In this document: positions 4,813-64,000 of the stretch, piece by piece | Layout: every line of letters starts with the position of its first letter | Numbering within the stretch: the first letter of the stretch is position 1 | Assembly: GCA_029834535.1 (NCBI GenBank) | Contig: JAQMWT010000025.1 | Location: 167,837-231,836, forward strand | Direction: 5' to 3' | Source: Chrysophaeum taylorii | Taxonomy: Eukaryota; Sar; Pelagophyceae; Pelagomonadales; Pelagomonadaceae | Length of the DNA stretch: 64,000 nucleotides | Notes under the pieces: model-generated | Databases searched by the model: none | What the model saw: the letters and a program-made list of their open reading frames with translations, nothing else | What the model was told of the DNA's origin: nothing | Translations under genes and position numbers: made by a program

Positions 4813-4866
<54 letters not shown>

Positions 4867-38052: not shown

Positions 38053-38862
38053 CTAACGGAAGAGCGTTGGAAGCTCTGAATTGCACTGATGACGGAACTT
38101 AATGTCATCACAAATCGTCGGGGATTTGGTCGTCGGGTGTCGCGTTGAAGCGGGGAGGAACGACGAATGCTCATCAGGTATTGGCGTGTGACAGAGGTCC
38201 TTAGAAAGAGGGACTTCGGTACGTGCCTTGAATTGAGTTCCGATGTAGCCAGAGTAGCCATCGGAGGCATGACTGATACGAATCGAAACGAATCTTGTCG
38301 TCGGTGGAAAATTAATGCGCCCTCGTAATTCGAACTGGGTGAAATCTTCGAATTGCCGGTGAGACGGAGAGACCATGGTTGCGAAACGATTGCAGAGCCG
38401 GGCGGCGGTCGGAGGAGGCGCTTGAGCGGTGGCTGAGACGACAGTGTCCTGCGTATCATGAATCAAAAGGTGTTCGGGCATCGTACTGTGCGAAAAGCGA
38501 GCGTGCGTCTCAGTTGACTGTGAGTGTACCATGGGTATGGCGCAAAGTTCGTAGTCTAAACCGAGAGGGGCGGTGAGCGTGCCGTCGCGAGTGCATAGGA
38601 GCCTGTGCGGTGTCTGAGCTGTAATCGGAATATGGCATATGACGTCATACAAAGCGATGGGAGCTGTATCAGACGTGATGGGACTGGCTAGTAGTGCCGG
38701 GAGCAGCATGTCGGGGGTAGTGCTCAGAGATGAGGGTGGAACGCAGTCCACTTCTATCTTGGTTGCCGTGTGTCGCGGTACTATGGGCGTAAACATCCGA
38801 CATGAGGTAAATGCTTGTGTCCCAAACGAGAATGCGAGTATAGTCGCATGGGAAGGTTGCAT
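38053..38862 (-). pseudogene. Downstream frame of the 8.2-kb element, unknown
   Basis: A 269-codon minus frame overlaps the end of ORF2 by 82 bp. It includes RINFPPTTRFVSIRISHASD and SKDLCHTPIPDEHSSFLP, which look like a folded domain. No family is recognised. Its overlap with ORF2 suggests a frameshift-linked continuation. Confidence 0.35.
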
Positions 38863-43541: not shown

Positions 43542-43763
43542 GTTGTCGGGGTTGCGTTTTGCGCGTTGTTGTTTGCCTTTCACACTTTTCACACTTTGTT
43601 CACCAGTAGCAAGCGATGGGACTTGACTACGGTCTTTTTGACTTCAGGAACTTCAGGAGATTGCTCTTACCTGGAAATCCTGGGTCTTTGTCCGAGACGT
43701 CGATCGAGACCGACGTCTTTCGGAGGACGTTCCTCTACCAGTACCGGACTGGGTCCAAACCTG

Positions 43764-43932
43764 GAGAACAGTAAAAACCACTGTGCCTATGGTAGAGAAT
43801 GGTGGCAGTGGTAGTGCCACTCTTATTGCCCTGTCTCTAACGACACAAAGAGCAGCACGGTGTTCGACAAAGCGATTTTGGGTTGTTTAGTGTGAGTGCG
43901 AGGTTAAGGGGGGGGGTGTCCTAACCCTAAAT
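43764..43932 (-). repeat. 5' LTR of the 8.2-kb element
   Basis: See the element entry. On the minus strand it runs from ATTTAGGGTTAGGACA to TTTTTACTGTTCTC and is followed by AGGTTTGGACCCAGTCCGGT, the candidate primer-binding region. Confidence 0.75.
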
Positions 43933-43939
43933 GGCATTT

Positions 43940-44095
43940 CACTTTTTCTACGGTCGCCCCCCAAAAAACAACATGTTATTAAGGTCGACCCCCCAAAATC
44001 ACCACTTTCTCTACGGTCGCCCCCCAAAACACCATATTTTCGAGGTACCCCCCCAAATACATATAGAATCCAACGTTGTCACCCCCCCAATTCCT
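43940..44095. repeat. Degenerate C-rich tandem repeats
   Basis: Four to five units of about 35-40 bp built on CTACGGTCGCCCCCCAAAA and ATCACCACTT. A similar single unit lies at the other side of the 8.2-kb element (about 35697-35722), so the element may have inserted into such an array. Confidence 0.65.
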
Positions 44096-46123: not shown

Positions 46124-46140
46124 TAGAGATAGAAAATTTG

Positions 46141-46317
46141 ATTTAGGGTTAGTACCCCCCTATCCTAGGGTTAGCTCTCTTACTTCTATCACTTTTAAAT
46201 CAAAAAACGCTGTGTTATTCACACCGTGCTGTCCTCGTTGTTAGAGCACAGGACGAGGGCAGACTACCACTGCTCTCACTCTGCTGAAGGGTAACACAGT
46301 TGTGATTACTGTTCTCT
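46141..46317 (+). repeat. 5' LTR of methyltransferase retroelement, copy 1
   Basis: About 177 bp from ATTTAGGGTTAGTACC to TTACTGTTCTCT. It aligns along its length with the interrupted copy at 57437-58101, apart from the LINE insertion there. The following AGGTCACGGGCACCAGTCCG is the candidate primer-binding region. No matching 3' LTR of this copy survives before the Helitron at 52.7 kb. Confidence 0.7.
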
Positions 46318-46402
46318 AGGTCACGGGCACCAGTCCGGTCTCAGCAGAGTACCAGGATTTCCAGTCGAGTTCCGCTACCCGACGTTCCCGAACCAAAACA
46401 AG

Positions 46403-48574
46403 ATGCCGACAAATCAAGAACTCCAAAGGAGTTACAGCAACATGCTCGAGCATTGAAAGATCAAGAAGCTCGCTTAGAGGCAAAGCATCAAAGCGAGTTG
46501 CAAGCACAAGCTCAAGCAAACGACGCTCGCATCCAAGCACTCGAAGCAATGTTTAGTGCAATACAGCCACCACCTGCCGTCGCCGCAGCGACTGCTCCCC
46601 CACTCCAGCTCAACAAGACCCCAAGAACAAGGCCAACACATTCAGTGACCCGCCAAGCTCTGTCCTCAGGTCCATGGACGGCGCTCAAGTCACCCCCCAA
46701 ATGCTCTTGTTTCGCGTTATGCAGCTGTTCGTTGAACACCTCATGCCCGGAACCGGCATCACGCAATACTTCCTGCTAGGCTTCTACACATGGGAATCCG
46801 TCTTACGCGGATCTAACGATCTAGCAGACGCTCTCCTAAGCCACTGCATCAAGGAGTATGACAAGGACCCCGACAACTATGCCACAGCCGGCAATACTCA
46901 AGATTTCCAACGTCGCTTCGTCTACTACAAGGGCGTCTACCGCAAGTTCGGCAAACACTTCCTTGAGACTGTACACGACAAAAACTCCAAGAACTCAAAG
47001 ACCAAGACAAAGATACGGCCGATACAACGAACGGAAAGCTATATCCCATCACGCAACCCCACCTCCAAGGAAAAGAAGCCGACTTCATCGTGTACCTCCG
47101 CGAGACCGTGCACCCCCTCTTTCGCCGTTTCCTGCATGCCGGTAGCGACTCCGTCAAGCACCCAGCATACGACGAGATTGATGCACTCGGATCCTCCCAT
47201 CCGATAGGACTCGAATTCGTACTCCAAGTATGTCTCGCACTTGACAAGCACACGGGCCAGAACCACGTCCATCATGCGCATTATGTCTTCAATCCCTTCC
47301 TGGACACGCCGTTCAACCCGGAGATCCACGAACCAGCGCACTATATAGATTTTATGTGCCACGTTCAACAAAAGCTCCGTCAAACTACCGACGACACTTC
47401 TCTCCAACTCAGCGACAGCACGATACAACAAGAAATCCACAAGATGCTCCGCTTCAAGTACCTCCCAAGCTTACTTGACTCCCGCGCCCCAACCCACATA
47501 CTAGGCTTTGCACGTCTTGCAAGCTGACTTCGTGGCCCCAACGACTCGCTGTTACTCGACGAAGACAAGGAGGCTACAAGCAATTTACCCAAGTTGATCA
47601 CCCGCATCACGGTTATCTCGACCTTTGAGCGCAACTTTTGGGCTCACCTCGAGCCTCACCCCGCCCTCAACTTCAAGCCGTTGCGATTCGTCACTGACTT
47701 CGGTCGTCTGCCGACCAAAGATAAAGACAATCCACGTTTTCGCTCCCGCCGTCATGGCCTTAACCTCACCGAAGATGACGACGACAACTCCCCCTCTGAA
47801 GATGATATCCCTCCGGATCCTGATGAAGCACCCCCTGAAGACATCGACCCTGCTACCGTTTTTCTCACGGAAGCCAACCTCGATCCAGATGACGACACTG
47901 CTCTCATCCAACACCTTCACGCTTATCGCAAGAAGCACCTCTCACGCCACCCCAAGAAACCTCCACCCAAAAAGCCCCCCAATCCTCGCTCACCGTCCTA
48001 CTACGATATCAATGACTGCCCAAAGCCCAAGGCCACCCCTGTCACCCCAACCAAGAACAAACAACACCCCCCTGCTTCTCCCGTCACCCCTGACAAACGC
48101 GAGCACCCGCACCTCCGCAAAGTCACCTTTCCTACCCAAACGCACCCCCCAAAGCCATCCACTCCTGACCAACGGTTCAAGGTCCCCCTCCGTGATGTTC
48201 GTCGCAAGCTCCAGACCATCCGGAACCTTAGTCAAGCCGGCCGTCAACACACCTCCAACTCGGATCGTATGACCAAGCTCATCAACCTCATCACCACTAT
48301 CTCCGACGAGATACTCCTCTCCGAGGCTGATTCTGACGCCGCCGAGTTTCTTCCGTTGTTATCATCCGACCCGCAGGATGATCCACCAGATGAGGGCGAA
48401 GCCGACGACGCTGATGACCAAGGCCAACTCGGTTTTTACGATGATCATGGTCAACTATGCCTATACGATGGTCAAATCCCCGAAATCGAAGACGAAGACG
48501 ATTCCGCCGAAGACTACGCACAACGTCACCAATACTATATGCGCGCTCTACACCGGAGCCAGCTTTTTCGATGA
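46403..48574 (+). pseudogene. ORF1 (gag-like) of methyltransferase retroelement, copy 1, frameshifted
   Basis: ATG 46403 (MPTNQELQ) is followed by a coiled coil in another frame (LEAKHQSELQAQAQANDARI). A conserved central domain follows (GITQYFLLGFYTWESVLRGS, FIVYLRETVHPLFRRFLHAG in copy 2 terms), then an acidic/basic C-terminal third (47594-48574, intact). At least three frameshifts (near 46430, 46610-46680 and 47030-47090) and a TGA at about 47526 separate the pieces; copy 2 reads them as one 720-residue protein. There is no zinc knuckle. A nucleocapsid role is inferred from position. Confidence 0.65.
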
Positions 48575-49450
48575 AGGTTGACGACGACGCCTGTGCCGCC
48601 AACCGAACTTTACTAAATCCGGCACCAAGCCTCACGATTAAAAATTTCCCAGCATCATCGACACTTTCCCCCAGAGTCGCAGAATTTCTTTGTGCCACTT
48701 ACACCACAGGAATGGCCCCCACAAAGACCAACTCGCTGCGCGGACGCAATGGACCCGGCACTGTAGTTTCTTTAATTGACGGTGGCGCATCTTTTTGCTT
48801 CACGCGAACAATACAACATTTTGGTCCCGAGTCCATACGCAGGATTCCCGAACATACCATCCGCATGGGCAGAGGCACCTTAACCAGCCATTTCATCGGT
48901 GTCAAACCGCTGTACTTGCAGGCTGCATGTCTCTCCTCAAAGGATATCAAAGACTCCACAGGCTACGCATTATACTTAGTCTTTTTGGTCGTCCCGCACT
49001 TCAGGCCAGGTTTGCATTTTATAGCGACCTCTCAACTGAAAGCTCTGAACGTCCAAGCAACAGACCCACCGCTGCCGCACGAACCATACTTGTATGAACT
49101 TCCGACCACTTCCACTTCAGATCCTCATGATTACAAAACGCTTCTAGGCACAACCGCAGTAGTTCTCGCCAATCGCCAAACTAATGGTCTATTGTCCCTG
49201 CCATCCCATCAAAAGCAAACTTTCCATGCTGTGATCAGTTTCCACACCGGAGCAAAAATGTCCCTCAAAGATGAACTTACAAACATAACTCAGAAAGTAG
49301 CAAAGACGCGCTCGCAATCTCACCTCCTCGATTTCGCCAAACTGCAAAACCACTCTGCTTTCCTGACGGAATTAATAGGATTGCTGCGTACTTTCGTCCA
49401 ATATGCATTCACTGGCTCGGCGGACCTCTCTGTGCAAGCACAGCCCCCTC
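48571..49450 (+). CDS. Aspartic protease region of methyltransferase retroelement, copy 1
   Basis: ATG 48571 overlaps the TGA of ORF1 (ATGA). The frame contains SLIDGGASFCFTR with the putative catalytic Asp at 48778-48780, then GRGTLTSHFIGVKPLYLQA and YLVFLVVPHF, consistent with a retropepsin-like fold. The usual D-S/T-G is D-G-G here and in copy 2. It continues in frame into the methyltransferase start until a stop at 49674. Confidence 0.6.
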
Positions 49451-50404
49451 CGCTATGCACAGCCATTACTGCAGGTGGACTTCACCAAGTGGGCTTCGCC
49501 TCTTTTCGCCAACGCCTCGACAAACGCATCATTGTCGTTGCCACCTGTGAAATCAACCCAACTATGCGCGCCCGCGCGCAGCAACAGTTCCCGCACGCTC
49601 TGCATTATAAGGATCTCCGAAAACTCACTGCCGCCTTGCAAGCCGGCAAATTACGACAACATACCTCAACTTGACTTGGCTGTCTTCACCTTGCCTTGTC
49701 AACACGTGAAACGCCATGAAAGACTACGATGGCTATGCCACTCCAGCAACTGCCGACCTCTTCGTCAAAGAACAAATTCGCTTTGTTCGTTGCACGCTCC
49801 CGACATACACCATTGTCGAGAACGTACCACAAAACCCGAAAACCCACCAAGAGTACGTCCAACTCGCAAAATGCTATCAAAGCATGGGTTACTTCAGACA
49901 CTCCGGTGTCTACAATGCCTCCGCCCTTGGCGACGTCATAAGCAAGAATCGACACCTCGCTGTCTTCGCTCGGCACCCGCTAAACGGCTACAACCTCGAG
50001 AAAACCGCTTCTTCCTGGTTAATATCTCCTCCGAGCATGGTTCCCCTCCTGGATCCAAGTCACACTATCCCAGAAGATCTATGGATATCCAACCCCGCTC
50101 TTCGCGGCACAGTGACCCGCTCCACCTTGGATTACTATCAGGACAAAGCCACTTTCTCATATGCACCCGCCAATGCTGCCCAACTCTCGATTTCCGAGAA
50201 CGCACGCATCTGCCAAATGCTTGCACGCCTGAAGAAGCCCTTCACGGATTTAGGCCTGGACGCCGACGGCACCCCCTATGCCTCGATGACCACCATCCCA
50301 CATCTCTTGGTATTTACATTGCTGCACAATCATTTGTCGCAACACCCTACTCTCGCCGCCTGGAACACACTCCGCTGCTTTCACGCCTCCGAGTCACAGT
50401 GTGC
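49440..50404 (+). pseudogene. C5 cytosine DNA methyltransferase-like domain, copy 1
   Basis: The motifs appear in the order of C5-MTases. Motif I-like TAGGLHQVGF (about 49467-49497) is followed by an acidic residue in ATCEIN. Then come PCQ with the catalytic Cys (49694-49702), ENV of motif VI (49818-49826), and GDVISKNRHLAVFAR, like motif VIII. A target-recognition-sized segment follows, then LSISENARICQML, like motif IX. Such enzymes transfer methyl groups from SAM to cytosine C5. Frameshifts at about 49660 and 49715 break the frame before and after PCQ, so this copy is inactive as read. No CXXC, BAH, chromodomain or SNF2 region is attached. The call rests on motif order and on agreement with copy 2. 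Confidence 0.75.
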
Positions 50405-50506
50405 TTAAAACCTGGATGGAGCCATCTCCGGCACTGCCGCCACCGCCGTCGCATGTGACTACTTCCCGCGCGCATCCCTCACCTTGCATTCACGCCCCCT
50501 CAGATA

Positions 50507-51139
50507 TTGGACTGCTCACACCAACCCGCAGTCTTTTCCCCAACGCACACCTTCTCCCTGGATGTCCCCAAGGGCACCGCCTTTCTGGTCGTCGCCTACA
50601 CCAACTCCTTGGCCGCCGCTCACAGCTGCTCGGGCCCCTCCACGTGGGTCCACTACAGGAATAGCTCGCATCCCGGCTTTGCCGCGATCGATTCACGAGG
50701 GCGAATTACACTCGATGACCCCACGGGACTCATAATGTCCGAAGCACGTCCCACTTACGCGGACTATGTGGGCCACATCGGCGACACGCTCCAGAAAAGC
50801 ACCAAGTGCTACTCGGTCACTGGCTCTTACCCAACCAACGCGAGCTACTCCTACGCACTACTGCTGATCTCGCCCGACCACATCCGACACGCGACTCTCA
50901 ATGAAATCGCAAAATTTGGACACCACTCGGACCCGGAACTGCTTCGCTTGTTCCAACAGCACCCGCCGTACTTCGCGTTTAAGGCACTGGCCAGCGCCGT
51001 CCCGCACAACATGCTGCAGGCTAAGTGCAGCGCTGTCCTCGCACTCCACGAATCGCATCACCACGTGAATCTTCACATCGAATGGGCAACCGTACGCAAC
51101 GGCATCCCCGGTCCCGGAGACATCAATCAGGTTCCATAA
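50507..51139 (+). CDS. Unknown domain between methyltransferase and integrase, copy 1
   Basis: About 200 codons (GTAFLVVAYTNSLAAAHSCS, EARPTYADYVGHIGDTLQKS, NEIAKFGHHSDPELLRLFQQ) are conserved in copy 2 (62340-62800) but match no domain I know. A degenerate RNase H was considered but the Asp/Glu pattern is not convincing. It ends at an in-frame TAA (51137-51139); the integrase continues in the same frame. About 108 bp before the stop are absent from copy 2. Confidence 0.45.
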   Translation: MDCSHQPAVFSPTHTFSLDVPKGTAFLVVAYTNSLAAAHSCSGPSTWVHYRNSSHPGFAAIDSRGRITLDDPTGLIMSEARPTYADYVGHIGDTLQKSTKCYSVTGSYPTNASYSYALLLISPDHIRHATLNEIAKFGHHSDPELLRLFQQHPPYFAFKALASAVPHNMLQAKCSAVLALHESHHHVNLHIEWATVRNGIPGPGDINQVP

Positions 51140-51145
51140 TTCTTC

Positions 51146-52609
51146 TTGAACATCTCCAGCCGTCTCTTAGCAGTGGAGGACCTCCACCTCACCTCTCTCT
51201 TCAAAGCTTTTGCAGTGTATGCCCACCATGCTGCGATCCGCAAGCCACGCAAATCGAAAAACCTCGAGACGCTACTTGCCGATGCCACAGTTGCTAAAGT
51301 CAGAGTCGACAAGCGACCCAGCCCCCCTAGCGCTTCGACTGCAGCTCCGCCCCCCTTGCACAAGACTGGCACCACTCAGCACGCAAAAAGAGTGCTTCTG
51401 GTCACTCGCTGGCACCGCATTCACCACCAGCAACCCGAGATTCTTCGCCGCACGATTGCCGCTAACGTAACGAACCTCCGCCCAGGTGATGATCGGTATC
51501 TGAAAGACTGCAGCGAATGCAAGCGCTGTCAATCGCATGTCAGCTTCCGCCATAAGAACGCTTCCTGGTCACAGGATGAACTGGCATACGCTCCTGGCCA
51601 ACATCTCCACATGAATGTATCCTACCCGAGCATCAGCAAATGCTATGGTGGATTCGGCTACATAATGCACTTCGTGTGTGTTATTTCGGCGCACAAATGG
51701 GTATACTTCCCGAGGAAACTGGACGCACAGGACGTTCTTGCTGGCATCCTCTACGTGGTCAACGTGATTAAGGTCGAATTCGATGTAAGTGTGAAAACCA
51801 TCTCGTCTGATGCTTTTTCCACATTCCGCTCCGAAGCTTTTCACCCGCTCAAGGTGCAACTTGGTATCCAGCTTCAAATCATTGGTCGCCACCTACACCA
51901 GCGGAACTTAGCGGAAAACATCATCAAAGAAAATACCCGGGGCACTATCGTTCGCCTAATGAATCTGCGCAGCGTCCGCGTTGAAGGAAAGCCCATTAGC
52001 GCCGAGTATTACCGCCCGTTTGCTCTGCTGCATAAGATCCAAGCAGACAATCAGCGCTCTCTCATGGATTGCCCTCGAGACATGCCCTCCACCGTCCCCA
52101 GGCGCATTATGTCATCTACGGCACCACTCTTGAAGCTCCTCCCCTTTGGCGAGCCTGTCACATTCGTATACCCGCAAAGCCAAAAACTGGAACCCTCCAG
52201 CGTACCCGCCTCTTATCTTCATAGCAACAACCATCTACCGAATCTCCCTGGCACGGACCGATTTATCCGTGATGTTCACAGCTCTATCCTGCTTGTACAT
52301 CAAGGGCGATATGGAAAAATCGTCACCTCGAACGACTTCCACGTCGATGCGGACATGGTAGTCAATCGCAACAAGGAAATTGAGCGCATCAAAGCACAGG
52401 CGCAGTTTCCAGCAGAAGCACGGCAAGAGGACCCGCTTCCAGCTATAAGCGACCAGCCAATGCCGGAACTTAGACAGGAACCGCAAAAAGAGGGCGAGAC
52501 TCATGACAACAACCATGATGACAAACCCGATGACGAAGACAAGGGCAAGGAACCAGATCAAACCTCTGCTACTGGTCCAAGTCCCGTCAGCGACGAGACA
52601 CCTGAATAG
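51146..52609 (+). CDS. Copia-like integrase of methyltransferase retroelement, copy 1
   Basis: An open frame of 487 codons. It has a zinc-binding N-terminus (TRWHRIHHQQPEIL ... CSECKRCQ) and a core with HMNVSYPS, ISSDAFSTF (Asp 51809-51811) and NLAENIIKEN (Glu 51914-51916). The first catalytic Asp is Asn here (AAT 51614-51616) but Asp in copy 2. After the core comes VHQGRYGKIVTSNDFHVD, like the block after Copia integrases, then an acidic tail. No RT follows: the copy ends at about 52660, where a Helitron array begins. Integration would be impaired by the Asp-to-Asn change. Confidence 0.7.
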   Translation: MNISSRLLAVEDLHLTSLFKAFAVYAHHAAIRKPRKSKNLETLLADATVAKVRVDKRPSPPSASTAAPPPLHKTGTTQHAKRVLLVTRWHRIHHQQPEILRRTIAANVTNLRPGDDRYLKDCSECKRCQSHVSFRHKNASWSQDELAYAPGQHLHMNVSYPSISKCYGGFGYIMHFVCVISAHKWVYFPRKLDAQDVLAGILYVVNVIKVEFDVSVKTISSDAFSTFRSEAFHPLKVQLGIQLQIIGRHLHQRNLAENIIKENTRGTIVRLMNLRSVRVEGKPISAEYYRPFALLHKIQADNQRSLMDCPRDMPSTVPRRIMSSTAPLLKLLPFGEPVTFVYPQSQKLEPSSVPASYLHSNNHLPNLPGTDRFIRDVHSSILLVHQGRYGKIVTSNDFHVDADMVVNRNKEIERIKAQAQFPAEARQEDPLPAISDQPMPELRQEPQKEGETHDNNHDDKPDDEDKGKEPDQTSATGPSPVSDETPE

Positions 52610-52665
52610 GACTTCTCCTTCCTCAACAGGCCACCACCGCCGGATGGAAGCAATCTAGAGATAGA

Positions 52666-52973
52666 CAAGTGCAGGCCAGTAAGTTCACCTAGTCCCAATC
52701 TCTAACCCTAGTAAGTTCACCTGGTCCCAGTAAGTTCACCTGGTCAGTTAGTTCACTTAGTCCCAATCTCTAACCCGGCGTAAACCCACTCGTGCTCACA
52801 CCCACTCACCCCACTCTCCTTTGAGCTCGTCGCTCTCACCCCCGCCAATCCAAGCTGCTTTGATCCGCACGCGCCGCCAGCCTTTGAGTTTGAGTTTTCT
52901 AAAACCCTAGTAAGTTCACCTGGTCCCAATGTCTAGACCCAGTAAGTTCACCTGGTCCCAGTAAGTTCACCTA
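52666..52973. repeat. AGTAAGTTCACCTGGTCCC array (Helitron subterminal repeat)
   Basis: The same family as at 1576, again starting at ACAAGTGCAGGCCAGTAAG; it cuts off the 3' end of the retroelement copy upstream. Confidence 0.6.
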
Positions 52974-53606
52974 CAGTGCGCGTGTAGACGCCGGGAGGGG
53001 GCTTATCGGTATTGCGCAGCACGTGTGGGGTAGGGTGGAGTCGTCGACTCAGAAGAGCATATCCTCGGGGTTGCCGATCGACAGAGAGCCACGTAGAGCT
53101 GGACGTGACAGAAGACGGGCTTGGGCAAGAGGACGCCGACCTCGCGGGGCGTCTGGCCCTGGCTCTTGTTGATCGTTTGGCGTCGGCGGGCCTTAAGGGA
53201 TACAGGTTGGAGGAGCCTCGGTGACACGACACGATCGATCATGTATCTGGTACCGTTGCAGTGGCCGTGCGACGGGTCGAGGTTGCGAAGACTTTAAGCT
53301 CGCGATCAAAGTCAGCATGCCGTTGGTTGTCAGGGAGTTGAAAACTCGACTGTAAAGAGCGAGGCGTCGTCTTCCGACCCAACCTAGTCGGCCGAAAAGA
53401 ACTCCGACGCCTCGTCTCCGGGAAAAAAAGGCCGCGGTCATGCGCGCGTTGTCAGCATCGACAACATCGTTTCGACGGGGCGTGAGAATGGCGCGCCGAA
53501 AGAGCCGCCGCGGGTCGTGGAAACAGTCTGCGAGGTCGCCGTAGACGGCTAGGAGGATCAATGTCTGGCTCGCGCGCCTACATGATCCTTACCCTGAATC
53601 GGGGAA
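52974..53606 (-). mobile_element. Helitron helicase C-terminal remnant, copy F
   Basis: The minus strand has [29 protein letters not shown] and RAILTPRRNDVV as in the other copies, with the right edge at CATGATCCTTACCCTGAATCG. It joins an RLE 3' UTR. Confidence 0.65.
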
Positions 53607-53855
53607 CAAACCCACCCACATCCTTCATGCTCCCCACACACACCCCCCTCTTAGCAGTCGACATTTAAAGACAAACAAACTTATCTCCGCCCGTCAGGCA
53701 CATCCCTCCTACCCCACAAACCCACCCACATCCTTCATGCCCCCCACACACACCCCCCTCTTAGCAGTCGACATTTAGAGACAAACAAACAGACCAACAT
53801 CCTTCATGCCCCCCACATCCTTCGAGCACCACACACACACACCCCTCTTAGCTAA
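53607..53855 (+). mobile_element. RLE 3'-UTR pieces, interrupted by LINE
   Basis: Three successive RLE 3'-UTR units (ACCCACCCACATCC ... TTAGCAGTCGACATTTA), the last cut at CTCTTAGC by the LINE. The remainder (AGCAGTCGACCTTTAAAGAC, an ACAG array, CATCTGTCGATTAGTAATAA) resumes at about 57309-57425. Confidence 0.6.
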
Positions 53856-53934
53856 CTAACTAACTTCGGACCTCTCCCGGGCATGGGAGCCAGGCTGGGC
53901 CGGCAGTAGCCGGTCCAGGATCACAGAGCAAAAA

Positions 53935-56290
53935 TCACACAGTTGGGGTAGAGGCGAGGGATGAAAGTGCATGGATGGCGGACCGCCACTGCGCGCGGTC
54001 TTGTGCGAGGTCGTGCCACGAGTTGAAGGGGATGTCGCATTTCCGGAGTGCCTTGGCGAGCGACCTCCCGTACGTCATCTGCGGAGCCCCCGGTGGGTGC
54101 TTGGAGCGGACCCAAGACGAGAGCATCTTGCGAGGGAGTCGGGAGAAGGGCATGCGGGCGACGTGACCGGCCCAGCGGAGCTGGCGGCGCGTGACGTAGA
54201 CGTCGATGGACTCGAGGCCGAGGCGCCGCAGCAGGATCTCCGTTGAGATGTGGTGGAACCAGGTGTGTTTCCGGGTCACACGACACATGACGCGGGCGCA
54301 CTGCGCGTGGAAACACCGCAGCCGGCGGAACAGGACCTCGGTGAGGCACCACGATTCCGCACCGTGAAGGAGGATGGCCAGGACGAGCGAGACATAGACG
54401 AGGCGCTTGGCGCGAGCAGAGACGGACTTCGAGGCGAAGATGCAGTCCCGCAAGGCACCGAAGGCCTGAGACGCCTTCTTGATCCGCGCGTCGACGTCTG
54501 AGTCGTCGCGGCAGTCGCGCGAGAGGACCGAGCCGAGGTACTTAAACTGGTCGACGACCGGTATGAAGCGGCCGCGCCCGAGCTCGATGTCCGAGAGGTT
54601 CGTGTCGTCGAACGACTTTGGGTCGCCGTACAGGTGTGCCGGGCGAGCGACGAACAGCATCTCCGTTTTGGACGCCGCTTTCGTGTGTCGGTTGCCGCAA
54701 TGCACCTCCATGCCCCAGGCGTCGCAGTGTTCGATGAGGCGCGGTGTCTCGCTGGCGGCGATGTGGCGGTCCCAGAAGAGAAAGGCAACGTCGTCGGCGT
54801 ACGCCGATTCATCGAAGGGAAACTCGTCGCCGCGAGCGGACCAACCCCGGTTCGTCATCTGAAAGTCTTTCCGCGTACGGTAGACACACGGGGCGCGGCC
54901 ATGGCGTCGTCGAAACGACGTCGTCAGTGCCGCCATGAACAGCACGAACAGGACGGGGCCCAGGACGTCGCCCTGCTTGACGCCGATGATCGAGTCAACC
55001 GAGGCGACGACACCGCTGACCGAGAAGTGGACCTGGATTCGGTGGAGGCCCTTGATGACTTCGACGAGCTTCGGCGGGACGCCGAACTTCAGGAGCACCT
55101 CCCAGAGAAGCTCTCGCGGGACGCGGTCGAACGCCTTAACGAAATCGATGAACAGTACCCACGAGTCCTGACCGTGCTCACGCCGCTTCTTCAGCGCTAG
55201 CTTGAGCGAGAAGGTGGCGTCGGACGTACCGCGCTCGGGTCGGAAGCCACATTGGGACTCGTGATCGAGGGCCTCGCAGATGACGTTGAGTCGCGCACGG
55301 ACGATGTTCGAAACGATCTTCTGCGCGACCTCGAGCATCATGATCCCGCGGTAGTTGCCCGGCAGGGAGAGGTCCCCCTTTTTGGGGAGAATCCCGAGGA
55401 GGCCTACGTCCCACTCGGCCGGCTGGACTTCGGACTCCCAGAACTCGAGGACTACACGCTCCAACAGCGGGAGCGTGCGAGCGTCGGTGGCGAGCGCCTT
55501 CCAGACCTCCGCGCGCAGGCCCGATTCGCCGGGCGCGGTGCAGTTCAGCTGACCAACGGCCCGTTTTATCTCCTCCTGCATCGGTGGTTCCCCGAGTTCC
55601 GGACGGATCGGCAACTGGTCAACGTCGTTGATCACGGTGGGGTCGTAGCGAGCTTGTCGACTGTAGAGCTGCTTGAAGTGCGCCTTGAACACGTCGGCGT
55701 TCTCCTGTGGCGACGAGCACCTGCTACCGTCGGCCTTCGTCATCTGCACCTGCCTAGCCAATGTGGTCTTCGTGAGACCGCGTCGGAGCCGTCCGACCGT
55801 ATTCCAGTATTTCGAGGTGCCGCCGAGCGACTCGCTTCCCGCGTTGAGTCCGGCACACAGACGAGCAATCCATCGCTCTTTCGCCCGTGCTACGGCCTTC
55901 GCGAGCCGCGACTTGATCGCCCGAAGGTCGTCGAGGATCGTGGACGCCGAGCGAAGACGGCGCCGGGCACCGAGCGAGAGCACAAACGCGTGGAGGGAGT
56001 TGCGTCGCTCGATCAGAGGCTGGAGCTCTTCCGCCGCGTCCTCAAACCATCCGGGTCGGAGGCGTCGGGTCTTCGGCAGTAAGGCGTCAGAGGCCGAGGC
56101 CGCCACCCGCGCAAGGCGGGAGTACGGCGAGGACGGCGAGCCCTGGTCGGCGTCGGGTACCTCGTCCGTGGCGTCGGTCGGTGCGTCGTCGGTCGCGTTG
56201 TCATGTGACCCACGGCCCAAGCCGAAGATGTCGAGCACTTTCGAGCACCACCGGCGCCGGAATCCGAAGCGCGTGCTTTCTGAGCGCAGG
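53935..56290 (-). CDS. LINE reverse transcriptase
   Basis: An open frame of at least 767 codons to a stop at 53935. RT motifs: GILPKKGDLSLPGNYRGIMM, SQCGFRPERGTSDATFSLKL, VLFIDFVKAFDRVPRELL, IGVKQGDVLGPVLFVLF and the catalytic YADD (54790-54801, reverse). A thumb and C-terminal region follow (VTRRQLRWAGHVARMPFSRL) as in RTE/CR1-type LINEs. No RNase H is present. No ATG is near the frame start, in line with translation as a fusion to the endonuclease. Confidence 0.85.
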
Positions 56291-57160
56291 GGAGCGTAGG
56301 CGCGCCAGAGAGGGCCGTGTGCCAGGAGGCCGTGCGAGGCGGACTTTGACGCGCAGGATGCACTTGAGAGCGCGGTGGTCCGAGTCCACGAGGCTGCTGG
56401 TCAAACCCACATCAGCGAACCGGTGCACGTCGCGCCGCCGTGAGATCATGTGATCGAGCTGGTACGTTTTCCAGGAGCGCGGGTGCAGCCACGACGCGTA
56501 GGCGCGCTTGCGGAAGAACGTGCCGACCGACGCCAGACGCCGTGTTGCGAGGAACGTGTGGAGACGGCGGCCAGCGTTGTTGACGTAAGGCGCCCCGTAG
56601 GGCCCACAGGGGCCGTCGACGACGTACTTGGAGCGCACGCCGAGAGCCGCGTCCCCGTCCATCCCCAGGACGAGGATGTCATCCGGCCGCCGCGCTTGAA
56701 GCGCAAGGTCAATGTCGTCGAAGAACGCGTCCCACTTCTCGTCAGGCGCGGTTCCGACTGGAGCGTAAGCGCTCATGACGAAGAGGCCGAGGTCTCGATC
56801 GTCATCGTCCTGGACATCGAGTCGCAGCGCAATAACTCGCGCAGATGCGCGGATAACGGTGCTGCCGCTCGCGTGCCACGCCTGTTGCGCCGCAGGGGAC
56901 AGCACCACGGCCACACCCTGGCTGCCGCGGGAAGACTGCTCGGAGGCTGCCAAACCGGAACAAACAGCGACGTAGCCGTGTCGCTCGAGCGACTCGTTGC
57001 CGGTGAGCCACGTCTCCTGCAACGTGGCCGCGAAGATGTCCCGCCGCCGTAAAGATGCGAACAACTCTTCCTTCTTCTCGTCGCGTCGCAGACCGCGAAC
57101 GTTTTGGTCCACGAATAATCGACCCGTCCGTCGCGTTCTACCCAACCGAGCGAACCCCAT
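56201..57160 (-). CDS. LINE apurinic/apyrimidinic-like endonuclease
   Basis: ATG 57160 opens a 319-codon frame with the APE family signatures VDQNVRGLR, TLQETWLTG, VMSAYAPVG, LVLGMDGDAALG and VDSDHRALKC (catalytic Asp-His). This domain nicks target DNA to prime reverse transcription. It ends at 56201 and overlaps the RT frame, which is in a different frame, by tens of bases. Either a frameshift joins the two or an indel has split a single polyprotein. Confidence 0.8.
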   Translation of the reverse strand: MGFARLGRTRRTGRLFVDQNVRGLRRDEKKEELFASLRRRDIFAATLQETWLTGNESLERHGYVAVCSGLAASEQSSRGSQGVAVVLSPAAQQAWHASGSTVIRASARVIALRLDVQDDDDRDLGLFVMSAYAPVGTAPDEKWDAFFDDIDLALQARRPDDILVLGMDGDAALGVRSKYVVDGPCGPYGAPYVNNAGRRLHTFLATRRLASVGTFFRKRAYASWLHPRSWKTYQLDHMISRRRDVHRFADVGLTSSLVDSDHRALKCILRVKVRLARPPGTRPSLARLRSPALRKHALRIPAPVVLESARHLRLGPWVT

Positions 57161-57308
57161 CCCAGCGCAGACTTTCCGGGTGCTAACCGGCCAGCCCGGG
57201 AGGCGGGCAGGCACCGTCTCACTCCGGGACGGCCGGGGCCGCCGCAGGGAGCAGGCGTATTAGGCGCCGTCCTCCATCGCAACCATAAGGTTAACGATCG
57301 CAAGGGCT

Positions 57309-57324
57309 AGCAGTCGACCTTTAA

Positions 57325-57403
<79 letters not shown>

Positions 57404-57425
57404 ACACATCTGTCGATTAGTAATA
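57309..57425 (+). repeat. RLE tail remainder with (ACAG)n array
   Basis: The continuation of the RLE element cut at 53855: AGCAGTCGACCTTTAAAGAC, about 20 ACAG units, then the terminal block CATCTGTCGATTAGTAATAA. Confidence 0.75.
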
Positions 57426-57436
57426 AGGAAATCTGA

Positions 57437-57911
57437 ATTAGGGTTAGTACCCCCTATTCTAGGGTTTCCACGCGCAGTGCGCCCGCGTCATGTGTCGTGT
57501 GACCCGGAAACACACCTGGTTCCACCACATCTCAACGGAGATCCTGCTGCAGCGCCTCGGCCTCGAGTCCATCGACGTCTACGTCACGCGTCGCCAGCTC
57601 CGCTGGGCCGGTCACGTCGCCCGCATGCCCTTCTCCCGACTCCCTCGCAAGATGCTCTCGTCTTGGGTCCGCTCCAAGCGCCCACCGGGGGCTCCGCAGA
57701 TGACGTACGGGAGGACGCTCGCCGAGGCACTCCGGAAATGCGACATCCCCTTCAACTCGTGGCACGACCTCGCACAAGACCGCGCGCAGTGGCGGTCCGC
57801 CATCAACGCCTTTTCATCCCTCGCCTCTACCCCAACTGTGTGATTTTGCTCTGTGATCCTGGACCGGTTCCTGCCGGCCCAGCCTGGCTCCCATGCCCGG
57901 GAGAGGTCCGA

Positions 57912-57944
<33 letters not shown>

Positions 57945-58101
57945 TTATAGGGTTAGTTCTCTTAACTTTGCCACCTTTTGATTTAAGAAAACGCTGTGTT
58001 ATTCACACCGGCTGTCCTCGATTAGGAGACAGATTCGAGGACAGACTACCACTGTTCTCACGCTCTGCTGAAGGGTAACACAGTTGTGATTACTGTTCTC
58101 T
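57437..58101 (+). repeat. 5' LTR of methyltransferase retroelement, copy 2, split by a LINE fragment
   Basis: The LTR halves 57437-57466 and 57955-58101 together give about 177 bp, the same length as copy 1. The inserted 477 bp is a 5'-truncated LINE. The LTR is followed by AGGTATTGGGCACCAGTCCC, equivalent to the candidate primer site of copy 1. Confidence 0.7.
57467..57943 (+). mobile_element. 5'-truncated LINE inserted in the LTR
   Basis: It carries the last 117 codons of the LINE RT frame (MCRVTRKHTWFHHISTEILL to SLASTPTV, 57490-57843), the LINE 3' UTR and about nine GTTA units. It is flanked by ATTCTAGGGTT (57456-57466) and ATTATAGGGTT (57944-57954), an 11-bp duplication with one mismatch. 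It is very similar to the LINE copy at 53.9 kb. Confidence 0.85.
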
Positions 58102-58187
58102 AGGTATTGGGCACCAGTCCCGGTATCAGCAGAGCCTCAGGATTTCCAGGCAAGTCCCGCTCACTGACGTTCCTGAACCCAAGCAAA

Positions 58188-60359
58188 ATACCAACCAATC
58201 AAGAACTCCAAAAGGAGATGAAAGAACAAGAAGCCCGTTTCAAAAGAGACATGCAACAACAAGCTCAAGCGTACGAAGCTCGGCATCAAAAAGAGATGCA
58301 AGACCAAGAAGCTCGCTGGATGGCTCAATTAAGCGCGTTGGCCACCCAAGTGCAAGCAACGCAAGCACCACCACCTGCCGTCGCTGCTGCGGCTCCGCCT
58401 CCCACTCCGGCTCAACAAGATCCCAAGACTCAAATTAACACCTTTAGTGACCCACCAAGTGCCTTTCTCAAGTCCATGGACTCGGCGCATGTCACACCCC
58501 AAATGCTTTCGTTTCGCGTCATGCAGTTGTTCGTCGAACATGTGATGCCTGAAACAGGTATAACTCAGTACTTCCTACAGGGCTTCTACACGTGGGAATC
58601 CGTCCTGCGCGGATCTAATGATCTCGCTGACGCTCTCCTAAGCCACTGTATCGACGAATACGACAAGGACCCCGACCACCACTCTACCGCCGGGAACACG
58701 CCAGATTTCCAAGGCCGTTGCGTCTACCAAAAGGGTGTCTACCGCAAGTTCGGCAAGCACTTCCTGGACAACGTCTACGAGCCAAAGCTCCAAGAACTCA
58801 AAGACAAAGACAAGGACCCGACCGATATGACAAAAGGCAAGTTATATCCGATCACCCAACCCCACCTCCAAGGAAAAGAAGTCGACTTCATCGTATATCT
58901 CCGCGAGACCGTACACCCCCTCTTTCGCCGTTTCCTACATGCCGGTAGCGACTCCGTCAAGCACCCAGCATACGACGAAATCGATGCACTCGGATCCTCC
59001 TGCCCGATAGGACTCGAATTTGTGCTTCAAGTTCGCCTAGCACTCGACAAGCACACGGGCCAGAACCACATCCACCATGCGCATTGCGTCTACAATGGCT
59101 TTCTGGACACGCCGTTCAACCCAGAAATACATGAGCCTGCTCACTACATCGACTACATGCGCCATGTCCAGCAGCAACTGCGCCAGATAACAACCGACGC
59201 TTCTCTCCAACTTCCCGACGACAAGATCCTCGAGGAAATCCACCAAATTCTCCGCTTCAAGTACCCCCCAAGCTTGCTTGACTCCCGCGCCCCAACACAC
59301 ATCAAGGGCTTCGCACGTCTTGCTAACTGTCTGCGCACTCCCAACGACTCGCTGTTACTCGACGAAGACAAGGAAGCCATCCACCACCTTCCTAAGCTCG
59401 TCGCTCGCATCGCCGTCATTTCGACGTTAGAGCGCAACTTTTGGGCTCACCCCAAGCCTCACCCAACTCTGAACTTCAAGCCCTTGCGCTTCGTCACTGA
59501 CTTTGGTCGTCTGCCAACAAAGGACAAAGACAACCCCCGTTTTCGCTCCCGCCGTCATGGTCTCCACCTCACCGAAGACGATGATGACACCTCTCCCTCT
59601 GAAGACGATACCCCACCGGACCCCGTTGAAGACACCGACCCCGTCGCTGTTTTTCTCACGGAGGCCAACCTTGATCAAGATGAAGACAATGACCTCATTC
59701 ACCAACTCCACGCCTACCGCAAGAAGCAAATTTCGCGGCACCTCAAGAAGCCCCCTCCAAACAAAAAGCCTCCAAATCCTCGCTCCCCGTCTTACTACGA
59801 CATCAATGACAGTCCTAAGCCCGAGGCCACCCCTCTCACCCCACCGAAGAACAAGCAACGTCCCCGCGCTCCTCCTGTCACCCCTGACAAACGCGAGCAC
59901 CCGCATCTTCGCAAGGTCACCTTCCCCACACAACCTCATCCACCCAAACCATCTACTCCTGACCAGCGCTTCAAGGTCCCCCTTCGTGAAGTCCGTCGCA
60001 AGCTCCAAACCATGCGGAATCTTAGCCAAGCCGGTCGCCAACATACGTCCAGCTCCGAGCGCATGAACAAACTAATCAACCTCATCACCACCATCTCCGA
60101 CGAGATACTTCTCTCCGAAGCCGAAAACGCCTCCGCCGAATTCCGCCAGATGTTAACGTCCGATCCCCAGGAAGATCCACCTGATGAGGGCGAAGCCGAA
60201 ACCGATGAACATCTCGGTTTCTACGACGACAACGGTCAGATAGACCTCTACGACGACCTCATTCCCGAAACCAATGATGAAGATGACTCCGCCGAAGACT
60301 ACGCAAAACGTCACAGTGTCTACATGCGCGCTCTCCACCAGAGTCGGCTTTTTCGCTGA
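58188..60359 (+). CDS. ORF1 (gag-like) of methyltransferase retroelement, copy 2, intact frame
   Basis: A continuous frame (open from 58107) ends at TGA 60357-60359. By comparison with copy 1 the original start is at 58188, where ATG is now ATA; the next ATG is 58218. The protein of about 720 residues has an N-terminal coiled coil (KEQEARFKRDMQQQAQAYEA), a Pro/Ala linker, and a central domain (GITQYFLQGFYTWESVLRGS, VDFIVYLRETVHPLFRRFLH, PAHYIDYMRHVQQQLRQ). Its C-terminal part is Pro/Lys-rich and then acidic. No zinc knuckle is present. I infer a gag-type structural role from its place after the LTR. Confidence 0.7.
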   Translation: MPTNQELQKEMKEQEARFKRDMQQQAQAYEARHQKEMQDQEARWMAQLSALATQVQATQAPPPAVAAAAPPPTPAQQDPKTQINTFSDPPSAFLKSMDSAHVTPQMLSFRVMQLFVEHVMPETGITQYFLQGFYTWESVLRGSNDLADALLSHCIDEYDKDPDHHSTAGNTPDFQGRCVYQKGVYRKFGKHFLDNVYEPKLQELKDKDKDPTDMTKGKLYPITQPHLQGKEVDFIVYLRETVHPLFRRFLHAGSDSVKHPAYDEIDALGSSCPIGLEFVLQVRLALDKHTGQNHIHHAHCVYNGFLDTPFNPEIHEPAHYIDYMRHVQQQLRQITTDASLQLPDDKILEEIHQILRFKYPPSLLDSRAPTHIKGFARLANCLRTPNDSLLLDEDKEAIHHLPKLVARIAVISTLERNFWAHPKPHPTLNFKPLRFVTDFGRLPTKDKDNPRFRSRRHGLHLTEDDDDTSPSEDDTPPDPVEDTDPVAVFLTEANLDQDEDNDLIHQLHAYRKKQISRHLKKPPPNKKPPNPRSPSYYDINDSPKPEATPLTPPKNKQRPRAPPVTPDKREHPHLRKVTFPTQPHPPKPSTPDQRFKVPLREVRRKLQTMRNLSQAGRQHTSSSERMNKLINLITTISDEILLSEAENASAEFRQMLTSDPQEDPPDEGEAETDEHLGFYDDNGQIDLYDDLIPETNDEDDSAEDYAKRHSVYMRALHQSRLFR

Positions 60360-61150
60360 TGGTTGCCGACGACGCCTGTGCCGCCAACCACATCTTACTC
60401 CAGCAGGCACCAAACCTCAAGATGACGAATTTCCCGACATCATCAACCATCTCACCCAGAGTCGCAGATTTTCTTTGTGCAACTTACACTCCAGGAAAGA
60501 CATCAAAGAAGATGAACTCGCTGCACGGATGCAATGGACCCGGCACTAAAACCTCATTGATTGACGGTGGCGCATCTTTTTGCTTTACGCGCACAATACA
60601 AAACATTGTTCCTGAATCCATACGCCAGTTTCCCGAACACACCATTCATATGGGACGAGGCACCCTTACCAGCCACTTCATCGGTGTTAAACCGTTGTAT
60701 TTGCAGGCGGCAGGTCTCTCCTCCAAGGATACAAAAGACAAAACCGGTTACGCTTTATATTTCGTATTTATGGTCGTCCCGCAATTCAGGCAAGGTCTTC
60801 AAGTTATCGCAACATCTCAGCTCAATGCTCTGCATGTACAAGCAACAGATCCGCCACTGCCCCGCGAGCCATACCTTTGTAAACTTCTAAAGTCCTCAAC
60901 CTTCGACCCGCACGATTATACAACACTTCTAGGAAAGACCGCCGTCGTACTCGCCACTCGCAAACCAAACAGCCTGTTGTCCCAGCCGTCCCATCCAAAG
61001 CAAACATTCGCAACTGTGCTCAGTTCCACACAAGAAAACGAATGTCGCTCAAGGATGAGATTGCACACATCACACAGCATGTCGCCAAGACACGCTCAAA
61101 ATCGCACATGCTTGATTTCGCCAAGTTACAGAACCATTCCCTGTATCTAA
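60359..61150 (+). CDS. Aspartic protease region of methyltransferase retroelement, copy 2
   Basis: Its ATG (60359-60361) overlaps the ORF1 stop as TGATG. It contains SLIDGGASFCFTR (Asp 60563-60565), MGRGTLTSHFIGVKPLYLQA and YALYFVFMVVP, matching copy 1. The protease frame breaks near 61040 and continues in another frame (SLKDEIAHITQHVAKTRSKS). Confidence 0.6.
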   Translation: MVADDACAANHILLQQAPNLKMTNFPTSSTISPRVADFLCATYTPGKTSKKMNSLHGCNGPGTKTSLIDGGASFCFTRTIQNIVPESIRQFPEHTIHMGRGTLTSHFIGVKPLYLQAAGLSSKDTKDKTGYALYFVFMVVPQFRQGLQVIATSQLNALHVQATDPPLPREPYLCKLLKSSTFDPHDYTTLLGKTAVVLATRKPNSLLSQPSHPKQTFATVLSSTQENECRSRMRLHTSHSMSPRHAQNRTCLISPSYRTIPCI

Positions 61151-61195
61151 ACGAACTGCACAACCTCGAACATCCTGTCGTCCACTACGCCTTCA

Positions 61196-62170
61196 ATGGC
61201 ACCGCAGACCTCTCTGTGCAAACACCACCCCTACCTCATAGCAGCTATTATTGCAGGTGGACTCCACCAGGAAGGTTTCGACACTTTTCGCAAACGATTC
61301 GACAAACGCCTTACTGTCGTGGTCACCTGCGAAATTAACGATATCATGCGCACCCGTGCGCAACAACTCTTCCCGCACGCCCAGCACTATGCGGACCTAA
61401 GGAAACTCAATGCCGCACTCCAAACCGGCAAAATACGACTACCTACATTCGACCTGGCAGTTTTTACATTGCCCTGTCAACATCTGAGTGTAATGAAAGA
61501 ATACGACGGCTATGCCACTCCGGTCACCGCCGACCTTTTCGTCAAAGAACAAATCCGCTTCGTTCGTTGCACGCTCCCGACCTACGCCATTGTCGAGAAC
61601 GTACCTCCCAACCCACGAACTCACTACGAGTATGCTCAACTCGCCAAAGATTATCAGCGCCTAGGCTACTTCCGCCACTCCGGCGTCTACAATGCCTCTG
61701 CCTCTGCTTTTGGTGACGTCATCAGCAATACACGCCATCTCGCTGTGTATGTCCGGCACCCTCTCACCGGATACAACCTCGAGAAAACCGCCTCTACTTG
61801 GTTAACCTCGCCTCCGAGCATGGTTCCTCTCCTGGACCCCAGTCACACCATCCCTGACGATCTCTGGATCGCCAAACCCGCCCTTCGTGGTACAGTGCCC
61901 CGCTCCACCTTGGACTCCTACCAGCACAAGGCTACCTACTCCTACAAGCCCGCTAACGCCTCGAAACTCTCGATTCCGAAAATGCCCGCATCTGCCAAAT
62001 GCTCGCACGTCTCACCAAGCCCTTCGCGGATCTCGGTCTAGATGCCGACGGCACCCCCTACGCCGCAATGGCGTCCATATCCCACCTCCTGGTTTTCACA
62101 CTCCTGCACCACCATTGTCGCAACACCCCACTCTCGCCGCTTGGAACACCATCCGCTGTTTTCATGCCTC
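61196..62170 (+). pseudogene. C5 cytosine DNA methyltransferase-like domain, copy 2
   Basis: This copy reads motifs I to VIII in one frame: IAGGLHQEGF, VVVTCEIN, FTLPCQHLSV (Cys 61475-61477), AIVENVPPN (61595-61603) and FGDVISNTRHLAVYVR. Motif IX-like LSIPKMPAS is split by a frameshift at about 61975. The last part (FADLGLDADGTPYAAMASIS) is in the next frame. All residues expected for catalysis (Pro-Cys-Gln, Glu-Asn-Val, Arg of motif VIII) are present. It is more complete than copy 1 but still cut from the protease by frameshifts near 61040 and 61200. Confidence 0.75.
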
Positions 62171-62339
62171 AGAGTCCCAATGTGCTTACCATTTGGATGG
62201 AGCCATCAACGGCACCGCCGCTACTGCCGTCGCATGTGGATACTTCTCGCGCGCCTCCCTCACACTACATTCCAGGCCCCCTCAGATTTAGGACTGTGCC
62301 CATCAACCCGCAGTCCTCTCCCCAACGCACTCCTTTTCC

Positions 62340-62835
62340 CTGGATGTCCCCAAGGGCACCGCCTTTCTGGACGTCGCTTACACCACGCCTTGGCCGCCGC
62401 TCACAGCTTCGCGCCCGTCCACTTGGGTCCACTATATGAATCGTTCGCATCCTGGCTTTACCGCGATCGACTCACAAGGGCGAATTATCGATGACCCCAA
62501 GGGATTCATCATGTCCAAAGCACGTCCCACTTACGCGGACTACGTCGGCCACATCGGAGACACGCTTCAGAAAAGCACCAAGTGTTACTCGGTCACTGGC
62601 TCGTACCCAACCAACACGAGCTACTCCAACGCCTTGCTGCTGATCTCTCCAGACCACATCCGCTATGCGACCCTCAACGAAATCGCAAAGTTTGGACACC
62701 ACTCGGACCCGGAACTGCTCCGACTGTTCCAACAGCACCCGCCGTACTTCGCGTTTAAGGCACTGGCCAACGCCGTCACGCACCGTGGCAGGCAAAGTAC
62801 AGCGCTGTCCTCGTCTCGGCCATCTCCAGCCGTCT
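62340..62835 (+). pseudogene. Unknown domain between methyltransferase and integrase, copy 2
   Basis: It corresponds to 50560-51030 of copy 1 (SKARPTYADYVGHIGDTLQK, NEIAKFGHHSDPELLRLFQQ), conserved apart from a frame change near 62440 and a deletion relative to copy 1 at about 62810. Confidence 0.4.
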
Positions 62836-64000
62836 CTTAGCAGAGGAAGACCTGAACCTCACCTCCCTCTTCAATGCCGTCGCAGGTGCTCACCATGATG
62901 CGATCCGCAAACCAAGCAAATCGACAAACCTCGAGACGCTTCTTGCCGAGGCAACCGTCGCTAAAATCCGAGTCGACAAGCGACCCAGCCCCCCCAGCGC
63001 TTCGACTGCTGCTCTGCCTCCCTTGCACAAGCCCGGCACCATTCAGCACGCCAAAAGAGTGCTTTTGGTCACTCGCTGGCACCGCATACACCACCAGCAA
63101 CCAGAGATTCTTCGCCGCACGATTGCCGCTAATGTAACGAATCTCCGCCCAGGTGATGATCGGTATCTGCAAGACTGCAGTGAATGCAAGCGCTGCCAAT
63201 CGCATGTAAGCTTCAGTCACAAGAAAAATTCCTGGTCACAGGATGAACTGGCCTATGCTCCTGGCCAACACCTCCACATGGATGTATCATACCCGAGCAT
63301 CAGCAAGTGCTACGGCGGATTTCGCTACATCATGCACTTCGTGTGTATTATCTCAGCACACAAGTGGGTCTATTTCCTGCGGAAATTAGACGCACAGGAT
63401 GTTCTGGCCGGCATCCTCTATGTGGTCAATGTGATTAAAGTCGAATTCGATGTCAGTGTGAAGATCACATCGTCTGATGCATACTCAACTTCCCGCTCTG
63501 AAGCCCCCCCCCCCCCTCAAGGTGCATCTTGGCCTCCAATTTCAAATCCTTGGTCGCCACCTCCACCAGCGGAACTTTGCTGAGAACATTATCAAGGAAA
63601 ACACCCGAGGCACCGTAGTTCGTCTCCTCAACCTTCGCAGTGTACGCATCGAAGGAAAGTCTATTGCCGCTGAGTATTATCACCCATTTGCTCTCCTGCA
63701 TAAGATCCAAGCCGACAACCAGCGCTCTCATGGACTGCCCTCGCGCACACACATGACATGCACCGTCCCCCGGCGTATCATGTCACCCATGGCACCGCTC
63801 TTGAAGCTTATCCCCTTTGGCGAACCTGTCACTTTTGTCTACCCTCAAAGTCACAAGCTGGAACCCTCCAGCGTCTCCGCCTCTTACTTTCATAGTAACA
63901 ACTATCTCCCGAACCTCCCCGGAACGGACCGATTTATCCGAGATGTTCACAGCTCTATCTTGCTTGTACATCAGGGGCGATATGGAAAAATCGTCACCTC
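62836..64000 (+). pseudogene. Copia-like integrase of methyltransferase retroelement, copy 2, runs off the window
   Basis: It reads TRWHRIHHQQPEIL, CSECKRCQ, HMDVSYPS (first catalytic Asp at 63281-63283), ITSSDAYSTS and, after a C10 run at about 63507 that shifts the frame, NFAENIIKENTRGTVVRL. The block VHQGRYGKIVTS is cut by the window end. All three core acidic residues are present, unlike copy 1. Any RT should lie beyond 64000. Confidence 0.65.

Follow-up and report, generated by a model that had tools for sequence, protein, structure and literature searches.

Retrotransposons are usually targets of cytosine methylation. What, then, does a retrotransposon do with a cytosine methyltransferase of its own? 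The question is raised by a 64-kb stretch of DNA from Chrysophaeum taylorii (C25:167837-231836 of a 70.8-Mb assembly), here called the window, whose coordinates are used unless a contig is named. The assembly has 84 matches to light-harvesting proteins, in keeping with an alga, and three of these proteins resemble the fucoxanthin type known from algae with red plastids. It holds two copies, both broken, of an element with long terminal repeats (LTRs): copy A at 46124-52652 and copy B at 57412-64000. A first-pass annotation had described gag-like, protease, C5 cytosine methyltransferase-like, unknown and integrase regions in the same order in both, and this order was confirmed. Its assignment to the LTR retroelements was also correct, the element belonging to Ty1/copia, but the LTR of copy A begins 17 bases before the start it had given, 46141. 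Further copies, which it had proposed to look for, turned out in a genome-wide screen to be numerous and to include better-preserved ones.

From these better-preserved copies, here called family A, a complete structure was derived: LTR, gag, protease, C5 methyltransferase, integrase, RVT_2, RNase H and LTR. In copy L010 a gag-like frame is accompanied by a pol frame of 1952 amino acids, which contains everything from the protease through the reverse transcriptase (RT) and stops after the latter. This pol matches the C5 methyltransferase profile PF00145 with 32.1 bits (cut-off 22) and RVT_2 with 133.2 bits (E 1.6e-38, cut-off 31.6); the integrase profile rve gives 17.2 bits (E 0.0061), below its cut-off of 32.6. 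Gag and protease were called by similarity and motif, with no Pfam profile match for either in the window copies or in L010, and the protease-like SLIDGGA of L010 and the window copies was read by eye. At this site most family A copies shown have DGG and L020 has DSG; family B, described below, has DTG. The RT and the RNase H go beyond what the first-pass annotation had listed, as they are lacking in the window copies and were seen in others. The RT motif is SVDD, with VDD intact in 10 of the 13 copies that cover it (L010 has VDG), and an RNase H follows in L022, L023, L018 and L013, recognised by eye and without a profile (TAKSTMEAELIAAS). The LTRs are about 195 bp long, start with TAGAGAT and end with TTCTCTA or TTTTCTA; in L016 the first two bases are not clear. 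Seven copies were inspected for target site duplications, of which L018 and L021 were not judged. Four of the five judged copies are flanked by 5-bp duplications (CTCAC in L010, GTCAT in L013, AGGAG in L022, TATCC in L016), and L023 has none. The element is a Ty1/copia retrotransposon plus one extra domain, and we regard this structural part of our explanation as practically certain.

If the window copies were considered alone, one might suspect that the resemblance is accidental or that a host gene lies next to the element. Both are broken, and in copy A the 3' piece of the domain reaches 15.9 bits against PF00145 (E 0.009), below the cut-off. A significant match to this profile, which had been named as the check to be made, was thus obtained for copy B (30.9 bits, E 2.4e-7, at 61322-61699) and for many copies elsewhere, but not for copy A. 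Likewise, the motifs PCQ and ENV and the motif VIII Arg, said to be kept in both copies, are indeed readable in both, but a frameshift and a stop cross the motif IV stretch of copy A. Genome-wide, PF00145 gave 57 listed matches (best 123 of 474 candidates scored), all of which pass the curated cut-off; in our reading 55 belong to the element and two are host genes. Fifty of the 57 overlap family A places. Four of the other five non-host matches are also matched by the family B domain, at 23–24% as are other A copies, and about 3.9 kb downstream of the fifth (on contig C216) lies a family A RT. A search with the L010 domain listed 133 matches (best 123 of 647 candidates scored), several of them pieces of one copy. 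A domain match lies 2–7 kb upstream and on the same strand for 83 of 115 typed RT matches (115 typed of 131 RT places); for the remaining 32, truncation, a domain match left unscored or true absence of the domain may be the reason. All of 12 aligned domains match PF00145 at E <= 1 (best 2.7e-10), ten of these places being above the cut-off in the genome scan. The domain recurs with the element and sits within a single pol frame, and is therefore no neighbouring gene of the host. These two facts and the genome-wide PF00145 matches refute both a host gene and a chance resemblance, to which we would leave next to no probability.

The methyltransferase domain is under purifying selection. The Cys of motif IV, the Glu of motif VI and the Arg of motif VIII are all kept in 30 of the 33 family A copies that cover them (34 copies, two from the window), and 0.9% of random position triples are kept as well as this triad. 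The ratio of nonsynonymous to synonymous divergence (dN/dS) was compared between domains of the same copies, the pairs being non-independent. It is 0.189 for the methyltransferase and 0.168 for the integrase (162 pairs), 0.226 and 0.187 in the comparison with the RT (59 pairs), and 0.226 and 0.174 in that with the protease (129 pairs), that is, slightly laxer than the partner domain in each comparison. The ratio is 0.34 at low dS and decreases to 0.165 at dS >1, the pattern expected if lineages are under selection while active and copies decay neutrally once inserted. In L033, a diverged copy (66% identical), the domain is open across 331 amino acids and PCQ and ENV are present.

How old is the association of the domain with the element? 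Family A accounts for the RT matches of at least 68% identity; below these, among the matches listed, stands one that is 43% identical, on contig C560. It belongs to a second family, B, represented by L053 (C560:48700-55700), in which the domain occupies the same place in pol (hhalign against profile A2, E 5e-9). Motif I reads LVCTGV there, AECT replaces LPCQ and LEEM replaces VENV, so that the catalytic Cys and Glu are kept and the PCQ/ENV context is lost. Among the places listed, those of family B that are well kept are few (C560, C681, C102, C214). Used as a query, its domain finds many places at about 25% identity; seven of the 39 that were typed lie 3.9–5.0 kb before an RVT_2 match, among the 78 RVT_2 matches typed from a longer list. 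These seven places make up a third family, C (L062-L064), which has CSGM in motif I (LLCSGM), VESD, TSPCT, MEMTPP and a classical motif VIII, QARER. Judged from one RT per family, A and B are 43% identical, A and C 34%, and B and C 36%, compared with 26–29.5% between these and a methyltransferase-free copia in the window. The domains of B and C are 17–25% identical to that of L010. Eleven columns are invariant in 14 domains (10 of family A, 1 of B and 3 of C), namely G21, V40, E45, F58, P59, D85, C93, F114, E133, G170 and R177, which include the Gly of motif I, the Glu of II, the Asp and Cys of IV, the Glu of VI and the Arg of VIII. The simplest reading of these sequences is one capture, before the split of the three families.

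With regard to its origin, the domain resembles bacterial and phage C5 methyltransferases in that all 12 aligned domains match not only PF00145 but also TIGR00675 (NCBIfam dcm; E <= 1, best 2.4e-9), and differs in its divergent motifs I and X and in a TIGR00675 score below the cut-off. Profile A4, which is small and weighted towards family A, was compared with four enzymes by hhalign. The values were E 7.7e-9 (probability 95.8) for an enzyme of a Candidatus Megaera plasmid, which is bacterial and annotated as a DNA methyltransferase, 9.2e-7 for a phage enzyme, 0.0019 for the host DNMT5 and 0.1 for the host DNMT2. Profile A3, built from C and B, is not significantly similar to either the plasmid enzyme or DNMT5, and the bacterial/phage signal therefore comes mostly from family A. 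L033 is 24–30% identical to bacterial and phage C5 enzymes across 40–54% of the query in the places listed, and among PDB sequences a profile search with a limit of E <= 10 gave a single chain, 8yf3 (E 0.018). Among the four enzymes compared, the methyltransferase thus appears nearest to the bacterial/phage type and not to the host DNMT5 or DNMT2. The two host genes are L001, a DNMT2 (1g55, E 7.7e-39), which is a tRNA enzyme, and L002, a DNMT5 (7r76, E 2.3e-130; listed as 'DNA repair protein Rad8', which we take to be the Cryptococcus DNMT5). The Cryptococcus DNMT5 is described in PMC10538959 as the maintenance enzyme of a fungus without de novo activity. Apart from the elements, the C5 enzymes detected in the host are DNMT5, of the maintenance type in that fungus, and DNMT2, with no DNMT3, DNMT6 or other further C5 gene appearing among the 57 PF00145 matches listed (best 123 of 474 candidates scored).

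We propose the following explanation. A divergent C5 methyltransferase would have been gained once by these autonomous Ty1/copia elements, between protease and integrase, before the three surviving families split. The domain would be made as part of Pol, be released or stay tethered in the virus-like particle, bind S-adenosylmethionine and methylate cytosines of the newly made complementary DNA (cDNA) before or at integration. New copies would thus enter the genome already marked, and the host DNMT5 could copy the mark onward. Taken as a whole, a Pol-borne, once-gained C5 methyltransferase that is kept by selection and acts on the element's own cDNA is the explanation we favour, at slightly better than even chances. 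That the domain is a working methyltransferase is probable. Whether its own cDNA is the main substrate we consider evenly balanced; this part is suggested by where the domain sits in Pol and by the parallel with DIRS enzymes, which methylate CG (PMC5890265).

Several observations weigh against this proposal. C5 methyltransferases have the pattern FxGxGG in motif I and GN in motif X, according to the usual motif names. Motif I of family A is IIAGGL and so differs from it, no GN of motif X is recognisable in family A, and in B and C neither FxGxGG nor the Gln of PCQ nor the Asn of ENV is kept. On L010, TIGR00675 scores 35.3 bits, far below its curated cut-off of 100.65. The family B domain has no match to PF00145, that of family C stays sub-threshold (E 0.086–0.26), and NCBIfam gives no match for either. 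The direct comparison of profile A2 with family C is not significant (E 0.17), and C is therefore joined through B (about 25% identity), by position and by motifs. The AlphaFold models are poor, with a mean predicted local distance difference test score (pLDDT) of 33.8 and 42.3. Finally, if the element methylated CpG in its own copies, an excess of CpG transitions would be expected in old copies. For family A the ratio of CG to CHH transitions is 1.18 (203 aligned stretches, 21 copies) and for the control 1.17 (44 stretches, 9 copies), hence there is no CpG-decay excess. The control is the methyltransferase-free copia mentioned above (29662-33153, minus strand), with gag_pre-integrs, SH3 and RVT_2; its listed matches are 90–100% identical (best 40 of 575 candidates scored). 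The observed/expected ratio of CpG is 1.05 for family A and 1.17 for the control, a difference that may be due to codon use. Together these values exclude a strong CpG scar; they are compatible with methylation in other contexts, with methylation of RNA or with efficient host repair.

The altered motif I, PCQ/ENV flanks and motif X, most pronounced in B and C, together with the absent CpG footprint, would fit a methyltransferase fold that has no activity now and is retained in Pol for nucleic-acid binding or for structure. However, a scaffold alone would not require the catalytic Cys, Glu and Arg, which are among the best-kept positions of family A and, like the Glu of motif II and the Asp of motif IV, invariant in 14 sequences from three families; we consider an inactive fold unlikely. 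The missing scar in the DNA would agree as well with an enzyme that methylates RNA instead, be it the genomic RNA of the element or its tRNA primer. Such a target was raised in PMC5890265 for an enzyme of a long interspersed nuclear element (LINE) that was inactive on DNA in yeast, and in a Foldseek search with a low-confidence model the top row is human DNMT2. Against this, no significant similarity to the host DNMT2 was obtained (profile A4, E 0.1, versus 7.7e-9 for the bacterial enzyme annotated as DNA methyltransferase), and the adjoining integrase in Pol places the domain with the cDNA, so that an RNA target appears rather improbable to us. Methylation of the element's own cDNA stays our preferred explanation. 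A much wider form of it, in which the domain is an ancestral working module of a copia clade with a prokaryotic or viral source, and in which, DNMT5 being the only other DNA C5 enzyme of the host, the retrotransposons are the source of de novo 5-methylcytosine and their first mark on the cDNA is maintained by DNMT5 over cell divisions, would be quite a long shot.

Captures of this kind had been noted by the first-pass annotation for retrotransposons of two other algal groups, dinoflagellates and charophytes, and LINE, DIRS and Gypsy cases are indeed described in PMC5890265, where Iyer et al. 2011 is cited for earlier links between DNMTs and RT. KnitGypsy-Dnmt3 of Klebsormidium nitens (PMC5890265) is similar in having a C5 methyltransferase under purifying selection in the Pol open reading frame (ORF) of an LTR retrotransposon, but it is a Gypsy element with a DNMT3-clade enzyme and a DIRS-like repeat layout, whereas the present one is a copia element whose LTRs are ordinary and whose methyltransferase is, of the four enzymes compared, nearest to those of the bacterial/phage type. 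SymbioDIRS-Dnmt3 and SymbioLINE-Dnmt of Symbiodinium are also high-copy retroelements with a C5 methyltransferase, the LINE elements carrying an orphan DNMT class (PMC5890265). These are tyrosine-recombinase DIRS and LINE elements, however, and according to the same paper the Symbiodinium Copia elements are without any DNMT domain. Copia is named as a carrier in one sentence of PMC12344493 on 'LTR Copia' DNMT3 elements, but with DNMT3, in streptophytes and as previously reported; the element behind it is called Gypsy in the 2018 paper cited there, and may or may not be a true copia. A different methyltransferase occurs in a DNA transposon of Ectocarpus (PMC12477816), and such elements are unmentioned in the passages of PMC9998398 and PMC3145265 examined. 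In searches of an open-licence library we did not find a three-family methyltransferase-copia clade; we do not claim that a copia capture as such is unreported. The suggestion that the window might hold an independent case or a new lineage is supported by the superfamily, Ty1/copia with RVT_2 as against LINE, DIRS and Gypsy, and by the depth of three families. A copia clade with its own methyltransferase through a three-family split makes the question of transposon self-methylation testable in one organism, with the methyltransferase-free copia families of the same genome as built-in controls.

The features in the window are given in Table 1, with LTR limits taken from the LTR pairs and target duplications of other copies. 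Neither an RT nor a 3' LTR of copy A was detected inside the window, and its integrase region matches rve with E 0.056, below the cut-off. Copy B stops at 64000 because contig C25 ends there; rve has no match in the piece of this copy that was scanned. Both copies have an unknown region between methyltransferase and integrase.

Table 1. Parts of copies A and B and of a related LTR element in the window
Feature	Position	Strand	Basis and remarks
5' LTR, copy A	46124..46318	+	begins TAGAGATAG; blastn to L013 LTR; end by projection
gag remnants, copy A	46325..47944	+	several frames; tblastn of L011 gag, 78-79% in two main pieces
Protease-like region (SLIDGGA), copy A	48712..49224	+	tblastn and column view; limits by projection; no profile match
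C5 methyltransferase domain, copy A	49450..50340	+	tblastn to L010 pol; limits by projection
Integrase region, copy A	51236..52348	+	tblastn, 86% to L010 pol
LTR piece 1, copy B	57412..57466	+	blastn; broken by LINE fragment 57467-57942
LTR piece 2, copy B	57943..58101	+	blastn; end by projection
gag ORF, copy B	58104..60359	+	open, 751 amino acids; ORF list; tblastn 87% to L011 gag, residues 1-541
Protease-like region (SLIDGGASFCF), copy B	60497..61009	+	by similarity and motif; no profile match
C5 methyltransferase domain, copy B	61240..62130	+	IIAGGL, CEIN, TLPCQ, VENVPP, motif VIII R; frameshifted at end
Integrase region, copy B	62906..63998	+	tblastn 92-98% to L010 pol; by similarity only
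Family D, related LTR element, no recognised RT	35724..43961	-	same LTR start and 3' end; LTR pair 94%

The related element, family D, shows decayed similarity to pol that includes the methyltransferase stretch (44.7 bits, compared with at most 29.6 in 200 shuffled queries). It has a strong GC skew of 0.26–0.36, and 38 other places were listed at 91–96% identity (best 40 of 255 candidates scored). Family D is probably mobilised in trans by family A.

Contigs C25 and C521 have common elements at matching positions, for instance 52531/52527 and 198036/199057, so that C521 probably represents either the second haplotype of C25 or a duplicate of it. The end of C521 comes about 2 kb after a match to the family A domain.

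Copies A and B are separated by a LINE and other repeats. The LINE (53935-57259, minus strand) has a reverse transcriptase ORF (RVT_1 in 53935-56400, same strand, E 2.9e-25) and an endonuclease-like ORF (sub-threshold). The fragment inserted in the LTR of copy B is a LINE 3' fragment that left about 12 duplicated bases, and its arm at 57464-57847 matches 53931-54314, where the LINE between the two copies ends, at 98% in inverted orientation. Elsewhere in the window, a tandem repeat with a period of 8 bases is located at 4573-4914.

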